From Petrotoga mexicana DSM 14811 (GTDB taxonomy: Bacteria; Thermotogota; Thermotogae; Petrotogales; Petrotogaceae): a stretch of 64,000 bases of DNA. Positions 20,871 through 29,915 of the stretch are shown here, one piece after another; the stretch's first letter is position 1, and the number at the start of each line of letters is the position of its first letter. The position numbers were made by a program, and so were the translations under genes. The notes under the pieces were generated by a model, which ran no database searches, had not been told where the DNA came from, and was given only the letters and a program-made list of their open reading frames with translations. The stretch spans positions 62,001-126,000 of the forward strand of contig NZ_AZRN01000032.1 in NCBI RefSeq assembly GCF_002895565.1, written 5' to 3'.

Positions 20871-21629
20871 TTGTTCAAAAAAGAGAATGTTAGCCAAATC
20901 AACAGTATCAGTTTGAATCGATTGACACGATATTTGAATAATGTCTTGAGAATGGGCAGAATAGTTCAAGAAATGTACTATAAATTTGGGGATACTTATC
21001 TAGAGAGAAACGATAAATTAGCTAAAGAAATAATAAATCAAGATGACAGATTAGATTTTATCGAGGCAAGCCTAAATTATGAAAGCGTTATTTTATTGTC
21101 ATCTGGTAATTACACAGGCATTTACTTAAAAGCTTGTTTCATGAGCTCCAAATTAGTTCAAATATTTGAAAACATGGGAGACATATGCGAAAAAAATGCC
21201 AAATTAATGATTGAAATACTCAAAACCCCTTCTACCGTAAACGCTATAAATTTTGAAGACAGTTTGGAATTAACCAAAGAGAACCTTTCAATAGTTTTAT
21301 CCTCGTTATCAGATTTGATCAATATCAAAGCCGCCAAATTGATGACAGATCAGGTAAAAGAAAGTTTTTTTGAAAAAGCCAAGAAAAGTTGTATTCTCAA
21401 CGAAGAAGTGAAAGGGCTCATCGATGCTTACAAATCGTACTTGTACAAATCCAAAGAATCCATTAAATCCGCTTCTCTTCATATAGAAGTCTTAAACAAT
21501 TTAGCAAACTTTTCTGATTTAATCACAAACATTTCCGAAAATATCATTTGGGCGTTGACAGGGGAGTTATACAAATGTAGAAATAACGATTTAGAACTCT
21601 TCTATTTCTTAGGAGAAGAAAACTCGTGA
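20871..21629 (+). CDS. PhoU-like helical-bundle protein
   Basis: This 252-residue all-helical protein has two PhoU-type repeats. NQDDRLDFIEASLNYESVILL and FENMGDICEKNAKLMIEI (metal-contact E/D-x-x-D pattern, about residues 100-117) resemble PhoU domains; the C-terminal half is a weaker second copy. There are no pst genes nearby, so a role in phosphate signalling is only a family guess. The start is TTG after AGGAGG. It overlaps the next gene by 4 bp (GTGA). Confidence 0.65.
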   Translation: MFKKENVSQINSISLNRLTRYLNNVLRMGRIVQEMYYKFGDTYLERNDKLAKEIINQDDRLDFIEASLNYESVILLSSGNYTGIYLKACFMSSKLVQIFENMGDICEKNAKLMIEILKTPSTVNAINFEDSLELTKENLSIVLSSLSDLINIKAAKLMTDQVKESFFEKAKKSCILNEEVKGLIDAYKSYLYKSKESIKSASLHIEVLNNLANFSDLITNISENIIWALTGELYKCRNNDLELFYFLGEENS

Positions 21630-24600
21630 AAAAACTCTTCAAATACGTTTCAAAAGAATTCATACCACCATTTTTTATGGGCTTAATCGCTTTTATAGTC
21701 TTTGTGAGCTTAGAGTTGCTTTACCAACTATCGGAAATAATAGTCAGAAACAATGTGGGATTTTCAAAACTACTGATATTGATTTGGTATCATCTACCAT
21801 ATTTTATTTCCATGGGAATTCCTGTGGGAGTGCTGTTTGGTATATTTTGGGTTATCTCAAAACTCTCCTCTGCAAACGAAATAATCGCTCTACAAACGTT
21901 GGGAATACCGATGAAGAAATTAATTATACCTTTTATGACGATTTCTCTATTGTTATCTTTTTTTACATTTGCACTCTTCAACACCATCGTACCCGTATCA
22001 AACTACAAGGCAAAAGAAGCGATGGCATTGTACGTTTATCAAAGACCTCAAACACAGATCGAAGAAAACCAATTTGTCGATGTTGGTGATGGAAGATACC
22101 TCTTTGTAAAACAAATAGATAGAGAAAGTGGGATTCTATACGACGTGCTTTTATACGAGGTTAAAAATGATTACACCGCTGTTTTTAACGCTCAGCAAGC
22201 TCAAAAAGGTCCCGACGGTTGGTACATGAAAAACGGAAGGATGTTTAGAACCAACGAAGATGGTTTCCTCGACTTAGACATAACTTTTGATCAATTGCAA
22301 CTCGATATTCAAGAAGATGTCGAAGAATTTCTGAACTTCTCTAAAAGTGCTAACGAAATGACCTCAAAAGAACTAAAAGAAAAAATAACTACTTTTTCCA
22401 AACTTGGATTAGATGTCTCCGGTCTAATAGTTTCTTACCAGTCAAAATTCGCTAACTCGTTGGCTCCCTTGGTAATTTGTATTTTAGGAATTGCCTTGTC
22501 CCTGTTTCTGAACCTGACAAGTAAATCTTGGAGTGTAATTACAACGTTTGTGTTGGTTATAATTTATCAAGGTTCTGGGGCTTGGTTGTCTGCTTTGGGA
22601 AAAGAGCATATAATAAATCCAACGATATCCGTTTGGATTCCCAACATAATATTTGGTATTATTGGTACTTTTCTATTCTTGATGCTGGATACAAGAGTAT
22701 CTTATAAACTTCTCGAGCCTTTGAAAAGAATTTTCTCTGTAATATTGTTTATTCTTGTTGGTTCTTCCTTTTTTTCTGCACCCGTAAATATAACTAGTGA
22801 AGATTTTAATTTAAAAGATGAGTTATTATTTTTAGAAGGTAACGTCTTTGTAGAGTATGAAGGTTCTACAATAAAAGCCGATTCAGCTCAAGGTGAATTA
22901 AATGAAGATGGAACAATTAAAGCAGCAACTTTCTTTGGAGATATTACTTATCTATATGAAGATACCTCTATACAAGCCTCAGAGATAACCGTAAACTTTG
23001 AGGAAGACTCCGCAGTCTTTTTAAATTCATATACCATACAAAAGTATAAGGCAGAGAAAGAGGTAGATGTACGCATATGGTCTGAAAGCATGGAAAAACC
23101 GATGCAAGAGAATATAATAGAGACAAACCAGACGAAATTAACAACATGCGAAGATTGTATTACTTATTACTTCTCAGCCAGAAAAGTAGACATTTTTCCA
23201 GGATATTTTTTGATAGCCAGGGACGTTGTCCTTAGTTTTTTCGGGCTTCCTGTTCTATACCTACCTTTCTATTTTCAAAGTTTATCAGAAGATGAAGAAG
23301 AACCCATGTCTCTCACCTTTGGATACGATAACAACGAATTTTTCCTATTAACAGAAATTAATTATAAGTTTGAAAATGGGGCCAAGGTTCATTTATCTTA
23401 CAATACGATCAATGATCTAGCCACTTCGGAAACTGATAAAGAAGTGACACTAAAATACGGGGTTCCCTTTTTATATGGAAGTTTGAATCTATTTACAGGT
23501 CTAAATTCCCCAGATACATACAATAACAACTTAGGAGTTTCGTACCAATTTTTTGAAGATAACAAGGAAAGTGAAATTGCCAAATTAGAGTTTCAACTTG
23601 AACCGTCTACAAAAGACAAATCTTTGTTGTTAAATATCCCAAAACTAGAAACGAATTTGGGGGATCTTAAAAATATAAAATCACACATTTATTGGGATTC
23701 GAAGGGATTTGATGATATTCTATTTTTAAACGTAGAATCTCAAGCCTTTCAAAAAAGATATGGGAGATCTTTGATTTCTCTTTCAAAGCTTAAGCTCAAC
23801 TCTCATTCATATGGGGATATATCCAACCTTTCGATGGATCAAATATGGGATACGAAAGAAAGTGAAATAGATGTAGAAGGAAAGTACAACTTCTATGAAA
23901 CATTTGCCAGAATGTACGGTAACTTTGATTACGCTTACACCACCGTCGCAACCGAAACCACTAAAAATCGATTAACAACGAAAAACACCTTCTCTTACAC
24001 AGATACCCTTTATGAGATTGATAGAAATAATTTTGATTTAAAATTCAACATGGAAGATACGATTCATTTCAACTATTATAACGACTTTATACCTGGTGAA
24101 ACCTACTCTTCTGGAAAAACGCTCTTTGATTACTCTTTAGAACCAGGATTTGATATTAGTTTAGGTGTTTTCGAATTTGGTAACTCCTTAGAATACATAA
24201 AGGTTTTAGAAAACTCTCTCACTCCCTCTGCCACAGACGAATTGAATTACAACAATTACGTAGGATATTCCTTCTCTATCTTTGAAAAAAATTTTACGAA
24301 CTCCGCAAAGTTAAGTAGAAGTTTTGATCTGAAAAATGCCGAAAATTTCCCCAATTTGCAAGAAATGGAACTTCAAACTCAAACCAACATAAATCTATTA
24401 AAAACTAAAAATACCTTACAAACACAAACAGAGTTTGATATTACTAATCCCAATACGATCCAACCGGATACAACAAACGTAAAACTAACCAACGTCATTG
24501 GCCCTTTAACCCATAGAAGTGAATTTGATTATCACCATCAAGAAGAGATTAAGGTTGATTATATTGAAAACAGAGAAATTTTGAGGTACAATAGAAATCG

Positions 24601-25087
24601 ACTACAATTGGATTATAGGTATTATATTCATGAACAAACATTCACCAAAAAGATCCCAGAGCTTTTAACATATTTTCTTTTTTATTATGAAGGTAACAAA
24701 ATTTACGGGGATTTTGACATGAAGGAAGAGTACACTGTCTACGACTTAGACCTAAATTTCTTGGAAAAAAGTTCAAATTACTCTTTTGGAATAGACACAA
24801 CCTACCGTATTTCAGAGTCTCTTGAAACAGGCTTCGACATAAACAACAGGGATAAAAGCGAGTTTGCAAAAATAACCTTTGATTATAATATAGAGAATCA
24901 AAGCTGGGATTTCACCGAGTTTGAAATACAGAAAAAGATTATATGCTGGACGTTGAACATACAGTCTAAATTTTCCTTACTACCCCAGTTTGATTTAGCT
25001 TCGCTCAGAATATCTTTTTTTATCAATTATATACCCGATAAAAATATCTCATATGGTGATGAAGGGTTTGAATTTGGATTAATGTGA
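21626..25087 (+). CDS. LptF/LptG-like permease fused to an OstA/LptD-like outer-membrane domain
   Basis: This is a 1153-residue protein. Residues about 1-365 form a YjgP/YjgQ (LptF/LptG) permease: two N-terminal helices, PVGVLFGIFWVISKLSSANE, a periplasmic jellyroll, and helices near 280-360 (SKFANSLAPLVICILGIALS). LptF/G move lipopolysaccharide out of the inner membrane. Residues 366-386 (LKRIFSVILFILVGSSFFSA) look like a signal peptide. The rest starts with an OstA-like repeat (LEGNVFVEYEGSTIKADSAQ) and continues as LptD-like sequence (FFGLPVLYLPFYF) into a long strand-rich tail ending in aromatic residues. A TTG at 22721 could begin the second part. It overlaps the PhoU-like gene by 4 bp. 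Confidence 0.8.
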   Translation: MKKLFKYVSKEFIPPFFMGLIAFIVFVSLELLYQLSEIIVRNNVGFSKLLILIWYHLPYFISMGIPVGVLFGIFWVISKLSSANEIIALQTLGIPMKKLIIPFMTISLLLSFFTFALFNTIVPVSNYKAKEAMALYVYQRPQTQIEENQFVDVGDGRYLFVKQIDRESGILYDVLLYEVKNDYTAVFNAQQAQKGPDGWYMKNGRMFRTNEDGFLDLDITFDQLQLDIQEDVEEFLNFSKSANEMTSKELKEKITTFSKLGLDVSGLIVSYQSKFANSLAPLVICILGIALSLFLNLTSKSWSVITTFVLVIIYQGSGAWLSALGKEHIINPTISVWIPNIIFGIIGTFLFLMLDTRVSYKLLEPLKRIFSVILFILVGSSFFSAPVNITSEDFNLKDELLFLEGNVFVEYEGSTIKADSAQGELNEDGTIKAATFFGDITYLYEDTSIQASEITVNFEEDSAVFLNSYTIQKYKAEKEVDVRIWSESMEKPMQENIIETNQTKLTTCEDCITYYFSARKVDIFPGYFLIARDVVLSFFGLPVLYLPFYFQSLSEDEEEPMSLTFGYDNNEFFLLTEINYKFENGAKVHLSYNTINDLATSETDKEVTLKYGVPFLYGSLNLFTGLNSPDTYNNNLGVSYQFFEDNKESEIAKLEFQLEPSTKDKSLLLNIPKLETNLGDLKNIKSHIYWDSKGFDDILFLNVESQAFQKRYGRSLISLSKLKLNSHSYGDISNLSMDQIWDTKESEIDVEGKYNFYETFARMYGNFDYAYTTVATETTKNRLTTKNTFSYTDTLYEIDRNNFDLKFNMEDTIHFNYYNDFIPGETYSSGKTLFDYSLEPGFDISLGVFEFGNSLEYIKVLENSLTPSATDELNYNNYVGYSFSIFEKNFTNSAKLSRSFDLKNAENFPNLQEMELQTQTNINLLKTKNTLQTQTEFDITNPNTIQPDTTNVKLTNVIGPLTHRSEFDYHHQEEIKVDYIENREILRYNRNRLQLDYRYYIHEQTFTKKIPELLTYFLFYYEGNKIYGDFDMKEEYTVYDLDLNFLEKSSNYSFGIDTTYRISESLETGFDINNRDKSEFAKITFDYNIENQSWDFTEFEIQKKIICWTLNIQSKFSLLPQFDLASLRISFFINYIPDKNISYGDEGFEFGLM

Positions 25088-28700: not shown

Positions 28701-29301
28701 TGGTTCTGTTGATTTAACTGTTTTAGACGAATACGAAGAAGTAGAAAAAGAATACCAAGAAAATCTAAAAAACAAAGAAGATATAATGAAATCAATAAAT
28801 TCTCTTAAACAAAGTATAAAAAATCTTGATGAAGAAGCTCAACGTCAATTCAACACATTTTTTAACAATCTCAACAAAGAATTCTCATACTTTATCTCAA
28901 AACTTTTTCCAAACGGATACGGTGAACTCAGGTTAATTGGTGAGGGCAAAGAGTTTGAAAAAGGGATCCAAATATCTGTAAAAAAAACTGGGATGAACTT
29001 TCAAAAACTCTCTCTCTTTTCAGGAGGGGAAAAAGCTCTCATAGCGATAGCTTTTCTCTTCTCACTCATGAATCTAAACCCGAGTCCTTTTTATATACTA
29101 GATGAAATCGATGCCCCTTTGGATGATCTAAATGCCGCAAAAATATCAGACTTAATATTAGAGAACTCTAAAAAGTCTCAATTTTTGATAATAACACACA
29201 ATAAGATAGTGATGGAAATTGCCGAGCTTTTTTACGGAATAACTATGAGAGAAGGAACTACGTACATAGTTCCCGTTGATTTCAAGGAGTTAGAACGATG
29301 A
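25777..29301 (+). CDS. smc: Chromosome segregation ATPase SMC
   Basis: This 1174-residue protein is the condensin ATPase. Walker A GPNGSGKSN is at residues 31-39 in the N-terminal head. Long coiled coils (about 165-500 and 660-1000) flank a hinge near 500-660 that includes TLSGELVYSSGAITGG. The C-terminal head has the signature LFSGGEKALIAIA and Walker B YILDEIDAPLDDLN. The start is TTG with GGGGGAG before it. It overlaps the MGMT gene by 4 bp. Confidence 0.97.
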   Translation: MKLLSLEIEGFKSFGRRTYFNLDKNIIAIIGPNGSGKSNIVDAIRWLLGEQSQKQMRISEKNDVLHIGSNGNGSSNYARVSLVVQNDDNEKIKISKILEKDTPNRYYINNKVATLKELQNIFNKGTGKSFYSIIGQGQIGEIVNSSPENIRDIVLDASNIAKYLEKKEVSINLLNKTTENLDRINDLLFVVDKRLKSLSIRAGRAKKYLEYRKEIKRIGKMYFGASKISFLKKIERYQKEIQENSQRMKSLLSELFEVERSYRNLKSEIEDTDKQLSINGDMVENYRQRVQTIENEKNQLTEELNENNSSIISKEWEMNSLEEKLDKLEQQLKELSKNERNFREIEEKTQNKTNLINEKKNRIIQEIEKQEETLKMLESELSKASQEKERKETELKNLQTTYSSNQERINLLKDQINSLKTKLENNSQKMKEIEELLSHSKGTEIQLEQRLKKKFDELKQTENSYNTLISEIDSLQQNEKNLFYTYQSLNRQINEYEGFSTTIKEFFKVFKDDDNVVDVVANLINTEERYEEAVSTIASSRIQNIVIKNSSKAKEYLDLVKKGNNGKITLLPLDLLRTKVRLQKNFLNEPGTIDFVINLVNYKQEYRKVMEYVFSNALLVDNIETAIKISKMKYPGNIVTLSGELVYSSGAITGGKSKYDHSSTVLKRKREISEIEEKLKQIRAVLSNKQELYNKVKEKLNLQKEELESIKDELRQATLTKNSHDLDYKKIKEETSNLQESITLYNEKLANYEEKNKTLDQEIQSLKMEIENNYQNTTQTTKKMHEIEETIKDKRTLLNQIEKELIGQEMELKSIKEKYEYYKNQKLAIENELKEIKIKQQKTKESFDNLKEKNDKINQSINELNKEKDSLNNEISKLFELMKQSRTGKHNKAKDLENYENRIDKLKTEVNTIKQKNQEIEFEIKEANHNIQFLKEKAQNLEINEEEFELKELSEKDIEALGNKQKELESSLKKLGSVDLTVLDEYEEVEKEYQENLKNKEDIMKSINSLKQSIKNLDEEAQRQFNTFFNNLNKEFSYFISKLFPNGYGELRLIGEGKEFEKGIQISVKKTGMNFQKLSLFSGGEKALIAIAFLFSLMNLNPSPFYILDEIDAPLDDLNAAKISDLILENSKKSQFLIITHNKIVMEIAELFYGITMREGTTYIVPVDFKELER

Positions 29302-29915
29302 AAGCCGTGTTAGGAACGCCTATTGGTAGTGTGATAATCTATGTAAAAAATGACAAGATAACCAAAATAAAACTAACCTTTCAAAAAGAAGGGTGGTCTG
29401 CAAGACAAGAGAATAAAGATTTCCCTTCCTTAGACGAGTGGTCTGCAAGACAAGAGAATAAAGACTTCCCTTCCTTAGAAGGGAGATCTGCAAGGCAAGA
29501 GAATAAAGACTTCCCTTCCTTAGAAGGGTGGGCTGCGGGGCGAAGGGGCGCTAATAAAAATGAGAATTATTACAACTCAAAAACAAAGAAACATTTTGAT
29601 ATAATATATGCATATCTATTCGGAGATCTCCACAAAATCCCAAAAGAAATATTCGATTTCCCAGGTGAAACAGCTTTTGCAAAAAAGGTCTATGAAACTT
29701 TGTATAACACAAAAAAAGGAAGTGTAATTACCTACAAAGAATTGGCATCAAAAGCTGGAAATCCAAAAGCTTACAGAGCGGTGGGAAATTTGATGAAGAA
29801 CAACCCTTTACCCATAATTATCCCATGCCACAGGGTAATAAAAAGCGATGGCAGTATAGGAAAGTTTAGTCCAAGTATCAAATGGAAAAAATATCTACTC
29901 GATTTAGAAAGATGA
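29298..29915 (+). CDS. ogt: Methylated-DNA-protein cysteine methyltransferase with repeat-derived insertion
   Basis: This 205-residue protein repairs O6-alkylguanine. The C-terminal domain is intact: GETAFAKKVYETL, GSVITYKELA, the acceptor Cys in IIPCHRVI (about residue 176), and GKFSPSIKWKKYLL. The N-terminal domain is broken after strand KLTFQKE. Residues about 32-83 are three 15-residue copies (SARQENKDFPSLE pattern) plus GWAAGRRGANK, encoded by three 45-bp units and a partial fourth of the intergenic repeat. Without them the protein would be about 155 residues, the usual length. The insertion keeps the frame. Whether the enzyme still folds is unknown. Confidence 0.9.
   Translation: MKAVLGTPIGSVIIYVKNDKITKIKLTFQKEGWSARQENKDFPSLDEWSARQENKDFPSLEGRSARQENKDFPSLEGWAAGRRGANKNENYYNSKTKKHFDIIYAYLFGDLHKIPKEIFDFPGETAFAKKVYETLYNTKKGSVITYKELASKAGNPKAYRAVGNLMKNNPLPIIIPCHRVIKSDGSIGKFSPSIKWKKYLLDLER
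29391..29558 (+). repeat. Three 45-bp repeat units plus a partial unit inside the MGMT gene
   Basis: Units run 29391-29435, 29436-29480, 29481-29525, with a fourth partial from 29526 that has the canonical G-run core and GCGCTAATAAA end. The first three have lost the G-runs (GGTCTGCAAGACAAGAG) but keep the TTCCCTTCCTTAGA part. All have a length divisible by three. Confidence 0.9.

Follow-up and report, generated by a model that had tools for sequence, protein, structure and literature searches.

A permease of the LptF/G type and a divergent LptD share one reading frame across Thermotogota and are probably separated by signal peptidase

How does a single reading frame come to encode both a permease of the inner membrane and a protein of the outer membrane? 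This question is raised by a gene of Petrotoga mexicana DSM 14811 that lies in the 64,000-nucleotide stretch of DNA analyzed here (contig NZ_AZRN01000032.1, positions 62,001 to 126,000; hereafter the window, whose own numbering we use). A preliminary description had read this gene as an LptF/G permease and an OstA/LptD-like domain joined by a signal-peptide-like segment, and had offered three alternatives for its product: cleavage by signal peptidase, an internal start of the second part, or a chain that stays joined as a bridge. The open reading frame (ORF) that it delimited, 21626-25087 on the + strand, is indeed uninterrupted, with 1153 codons and a GTG start. Judging from its sequence and those of its relatives, we consider it probable that the product is a polyprotein cut by signal peptidase into a subunit of an inner-membrane LptF/G homodimer and a separate outer-membrane LptD. 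Among the three alternatives cleavage is the best supported, by natural splits at the join, by a layout like that of LptA signal peptides and by the presence of signal peptidase I in the genome.

The identity of the first half was as previously described: residues 6-352 matched the whole LptF_LptG model PF03739 (252.9 bits against a cut-off of 27.9, E = 6 × 10−75), and the full-length AlphaFold model matched the LptG and LptF chains of LptB2FG. Neither the LptF nor the LptG equivalog level was reached (TIGR04408, 145 bits, cut-off 240; TIGR04407, 131 bits, cut-off 230). PF03739 was present in 100 of 103 Thermotogota genomes, almost always as one copy, in a frame of 1050-1500 amino acids. Because there is a single LptF/G gene per genome, the permease presumably works as a homodimer. 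With a homodimeric pump, two LptD would be made per transporter, as against 1:1 in E. coli; a fixed ratio of inner- to outer-membrane product, as suggested earlier, is plausible.

We identify the tail, from sequence profiles and a predicted structure, as a divergent LptD. We call it divergent because the LptD barrel model PF04453 found no Thermotogota genome above its cut-off, and among the controls it matched only E. coli and Caulobacter. A Pfam search of the window protein alone gave no match in the part beyond LptF_LptG, and to this extent the OstA/LptD assignment from residue 387 to the end did not stand by itself; it was upheld by the family profile, by relatives and by AlphaFold. Specifically, a profile of 52 diverse tails (A1) matched the solved LptD chains 8h1r (E = 4.1 × 10−8) and 7omm (E = 7.5 × 10−8) over profile positions 5-216, a region that takes in the taco domain as well as the barrel entry, with LptA chains matching the taco only. 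PF03968 (LptD_N) directly matched the corresponding place in fused relatives, and the motif TTC...PxFYxPxYF is common to Thermotogota tails and LptD. Within this alignment C508 is invariant (52/52) and occupies the position of a conserved LptD cysteine, and in 43 of the 52 tails the last 75 amino acids hold a single cysteine (C1107 in the window protein, in the context LHCW or IICW). We take C508 and C1107 to correspond in position to the cysteines that form disulfides in E. coli LptD.

Structure prediction, which had been proposed as a check on both halves, agreed with this assignment. The tail model is all-beta (mean pLDDT 87.5, pTM 0.58), and a barrel is therefore predicted where its absence would have spoken against the earlier proposal. 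A Foldseek search of the PDB returned LptD chains as its first 16 matches (E = 5 × 10−16 downward), and in the VIA-align comparison with E. coli LptD the Z reached 20.5 across 512 residues, at a root-mean-square deviation of 13 Å. Deviations from LptD are so high (9-13 Å) that the domain orientation and barrel detail of the model are unreliable. Other beta-barrels, namely porins and VDAC, were considered and set aside, as porins reached a Z of only about 12, far below LptD, and only part of the barrel was covered.

To determine how widely the two halves are joined, a survey that the preliminary description had itself suggested, we compared fused and split forms. The join lay within one ORF in 97 of the 100 genomes with LptF/G, single-contig chromosomes included; this count includes drafts in which a contig end or frameshift falls elsewhere in the gene but the join is in one frame. 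Of the three genomes not counted, two are split (G005 and G053), and in the third (G001) the contig stops ahead of the join. The LptD profile found a target in 101 of the 103 genomes. A pattern scan recovered loci in Kosmotogaceae, Mesotoga, Marinitoga, Pseudothermotoga, Fervidobacterium, Thermosipho, Mesoaciditoga and Athalassotoga, among others; across contigs it yielded 43 loci, 42 from Thermotogota and one from a "bacterium," though its patterns were biased toward Thermotogota and it is uninformative for other phyla. The fusion is phylum-wide in the heat-loving Thermotogota, and we do not claim that it is restricted to them. Two groups depart from the usual form. In the Kosmotoga/Mesotoga-type family (f2; loci L052, L064, L082 and others), the fused protein is about 300 amino acids longer (1430-1490), the extra length lying after the join. 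In one genus of family f6 (g18; genomes G007 and G006, loci L108 and L115), a Pro/Thr-rich linker of about 45 residues, unlike anything in the other fused proteins, stands between the signal segment and the taco.

The join itself was compared with the LptA-like proteins of 17 Thermotogota genomes, in which an N-terminal signal peptide stands directly ahead of the homologous taco strand. The segment pointed out earlier, LKRIFSVILFILVGSSFFSAP, does correspond to residues 366-386, and its TTG at 22721 is Leu366. Numbering backwards from the first taco strand, joins and LptA signal peptides alike show lysine or arginine near −19, then at most 6% of these residues per position from −17 to −9, where both have a hydrophobic run (about −17 to −9). 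The median uncharged stretch is 16 residues in each set, and position −3 is held by a small residue in most cases (88% of the joins, 94% of the LptA set). The join thus has the layout of a signal peptide as seen in LptA: an n-region, a short h-region and a small residue before the mature domain. Identity among the fused proteins is 22% at the join versus 43-79% in transmembrane helices (TM) 1-6, as expected of a piece that is removed. In the full-length AlphaFold model, a seventh helix runs to residue 380 and the taco begins with its first strand at 388, with confidence below 50 at 379-384.

The two natural splits fall at this same place. In G053, which belongs to the window's family, the permease ends in EPLKRLLG and a stop codon; an ATG 4 bases past that stop, in a different frame, opens an 848-amino-acid LptD that starts MHLRYKSFSPVLFIISLFFIILSGTKVFSA-TAYID. 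In G005, there are two unfused tandem permeases, each ending after TM6, and an 849-amino-acid LptD with its own N-terminal signal peptide is encoded elsewhere. The split permeases have no seventh hydrophobic segment; the cut is at the join and the segment stays with LptD. This pattern indicates that the hydrophobic segment belongs to LptD as a signal peptide and not a seventh helix that the permease needs. In a tree of the permeases, G053 nests among fused proteins (the nearest fork is weak, 88/41, and the enclosing fork firm, 99/91), which implies that its split is secondary. G005 groups with fused family-6 proteins on very long branches. The LptA-like protein of G005 has 603 amino acids with several OstA repeats, perhaps a longer bridge, and its gene adjoins one for an RseP-like protease (L048 6294-8105).

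On the cleavage model, the ribosome would make the six-helix LptF/G, then the seventh hydrophobic segment as an internal signal peptide, then LptD. The seventh segment would insert with its N-terminus inside and its C-terminus outside and would carry the LptD part via Sec to the periplasm, where signal peptidase I would cut immediately ahead of the first taco strand. The permease would remain in the inner membrane, homodimerize and partner LptB; the released LptD would be placed in the outer membrane by BamA and reached via a separate LptA-like protein, the cargo being some lipid or lipoprotein distinct from lipopolysaccharide (LPS) built on lipid A. A processing scheme of this kind exists in Bradyrhizobium, where the fbcH cytochrome b/c1 precursor is a multi-spanning inner-membrane protein that continues into a signal peptide within the chain and then a domain that is exported, and is cut into two mature proteins; unlike the Thermotogota fusion, it belongs to a respiratory complex and both products stay at the inner membrane.

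Several points weigh against cleavage. It is deduced from sequence comparisons. By a simple −3/−1 score the join cannot be told apart from the permease's own TM3 or TM5, and the site in the window protein itself ranks with the weaker ones (FFS-AP or FSA-PV, having F at −3 or else P at +1). The long branches of G005 mean that the split there may not be derived, and the G053 split comes from an 80%-complete metagenome assembly. We had tried a home-made −3/−1 matrix as proof of cleavage and rejected it, as TM3 and TM5 of the same permease scored equal or higher and shuffled c-regions came close. What argues for a signal peptide is the match to LptA at one position after another, together with the splits; a motif score forms no part of the case.

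The strongest competitor, which we nevertheless regard as unlikely, is that the chain stays uncut. Much as in LptC, the seventh helix would hold the LptD taco beside the permease, and the chain would end in the outer-membrane barrel, forming a covalent bridge between the two membranes. The fusion is retained across nearly the whole phylum, and no separate LptC was found, a gap that a membrane-anchored taco would fill, LptC being a helix-anchored taco. However, the taco begins about 8 residues from the membrane and the barrel follows after one taco, so that the membranes would need to be very close, whereas publications on the OmpA rod of this phylum, in T. maritima, give it the role of a spacer in the periplasm (PMC9388160, PMC3387000). 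The link is also absent in split relatives, a separate LptA-like protein would be redundant, and the features of the join are those of a signal peptide, not of an anchor. The joined bridge of the preliminary description is a geometrically awkward and unlikely option. Its fullest form, a single chain in both membranes with an ABC permease tied through a taco to its own LptD pore, BAM folding the barrel while the chain is anchored in the inner membrane, is in our estimation improbable.

A start within the gene, at or near the TTG at 22721 and with its own ribosome site, appears very unlikely. This TTG does open the signal-like segment in the window gene, but in 21 of 92 relatives ATG, GTG and TTG are all missing between TM6 and the hydrophobic core, and Shine-Dalgarno matches at the join starts are at the internal background, while at true starts the match is 5 or more in 66 of 90 cases. 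The earlier proposal of an internal start finds neither a conserved start codon nor a ribosome site behind it, and the possibility that relatives carry a separate ribosome site fares no better. That the fusion is an artefact of annotation or sequencing, such as an error that removed a stop codon, can practically be dismissed, since frameshifts occur within the gene in a few draft genomes but the same ORF runs through the join in all the fused genomes counted above.

Table 1. Features of the fused gene in the window (positions in window numbering).
Feature	Position	Strand	Basis
LptF/G-type ABC permease half, residues 1-358, six TM helices; periplasmic beta domain ~149-226	21626..22699	+	PF03739; full-length AlphaFold model
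Cytoplasmic loop, residues 359-365, running into LKR, the n-region of the internal signal peptide	22700..22720	+	K/R-rich loop after TM6 conserved in 92 aligned proteins
Predicted internal signal peptide, residues 366-386	22721..22783	+	LptA-like signal-peptide layout; N-terminus of LptD in natural splits
Likely cleavage point, after S384 or after A385	22777/22778 or 22780/22781	+	Small-residue position as in LptA signal peptides
Predicted LptD N-terminal OstA/beta-taco domain, residues ~388-507	22787..23146	+	Profile match to PDB LptD and LptA; VIA Z 12-14 to LptA and LptC
Taco-to-barrel link with TTC...PxxYxPxYF hallmark and invariant C508	23147..23305	+	Alignment conservation; alignment to 8h1r and 7omm
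Predicted LptD outer-membrane beta-barrel, residues 561-1153	23306..25084	+	All-beta AlphaFold model; Foldseek top 16 all LptD
Near-conserved C-terminal Cys1107 (LHCW/IICW)	24944-24946	+	Cysteine conservation in tail alignment

The gene order at the locus is YggT, NAD kinase, PhoU-like, the fused gene, uracil-DNA glycosylase and SMC-like, and the GTG start of the fused gene overlaps the 3′ end of the PhoU-like gene by 4 bases. Elsewhere in the window, at 29387-29536, a 45-bp unit occurs in 3.3 in-frame copies inside a methylated-DNA-cysteine-methyltransferase-like gene (29298-29915), giving the repeat SARQENKDFPSLEGW in the protein, and G000:C22:3-61 holds a partial copy.

Next, we looked for the rest of the machine in the window's genome. 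LptB is encoded at G000:C34:257553 (277.5 bits against an equivalog cut-off of 240), and a 208-amino-acid OstA protein with an N-terminal signal peptide scores above the cut-off for PF03968 (24.6 bits) and is LptA-like. Signal peptidase I and a BamA-type Omp85 are also present. Matches to PF06835 (LptC) land mostly on the LptA-like protein; a weak one, G000:C34:289303, is by eye an NfeD-like protein and was rejected as an LptC candidate. The lptB gene directly follows one for a Skp/OmpH-like chaperone (L046 6939-8243, G000:C34; Skp called by eye), which fits a role in outer-membrane biogenesis. The gene for the LptA-like protein is clustered (L045 4000-13500, G000:C10) with those for two patatin-like proteins, for a small protein of 173 amino acids predicted to be beta and for a large SLH/coiled-coil protein that has a TM helix at its end and by eye resembles toga OmpA; the cluster is possibly an envelope-biogenesis operon.

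As for cargo, LpxC was found in none of the 103 Thermotogota genomes, in line with PMC5007114, which lists Thermotogota without LPS capacity. The absence of LpxC implies that the cargo is not ordinary lipid A-based LPS. In Borrelia, which also lacks LPS, surface lipoproteins depend on an LptD homologue (He et al. 2023, as summarized in PMC13317210). Among the lipids of Thermotoga are unusual glycolipids and others that span the membrane (PMC8788747). The Thermotogota system could carry either surface lipoproteins or these lipids.

The system shares with E. coli Lpt (LptB2FGC-LptA-LptDE) the LptF/G fold, LptB, an LptA-like taco protein and an LptD with a taco, a conserved cysteine and a large barrel. 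It differs in that LptF/G and LptD form one gene, in that there is one LptF/G instead of two, and in the lack of a detected LptC, of LpxC and of a match to PF04453. The Lpt-like system of Borrelia burgdorferi (BB0838 is its LptD; PMC10353723, PMC13317210) likewise combines LptD and an Lpt transporter in an LPS-free diderm, but its genes are separate, LptF and LptG are distinct and LptC is present. Negativicutes and Halanaerobiales also have one LptF/G homologue per genome and small OstA proteins (PMC5007114), although no LptD was recognized and no fusion reported there.

In an earlier survey, nearly all of the outer-membrane genes under study except bamA were reported to be missing from Thermotogae, and lptB, found in nearly all phyla, was treated as uninformative (PMC8871954). 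Our results contradict that survey for LptF/G, LptB, LptA and LptD. The earlier misses are likely due to divergence below standard models together with the fusion, which deprives LptD of an N-terminal signal peptide; an LptD behind a permease would be skipped by outer-membrane protein screens that require one. Our literature search, which covered open-licence papers, found no report of an LptF/G-LptD fusion. What is new is that Lpt components, themselves known, occur as a phylum-wide polyprotein. This changes the data on which arguments about outer-membrane origins draw, and the cargo of the toga's Lpt machine becomes testable. If the cleavage model is true, Thermotogota would possess a phylum-wide bacterial membrane polyprotein that supplies two membranes from one translation product.

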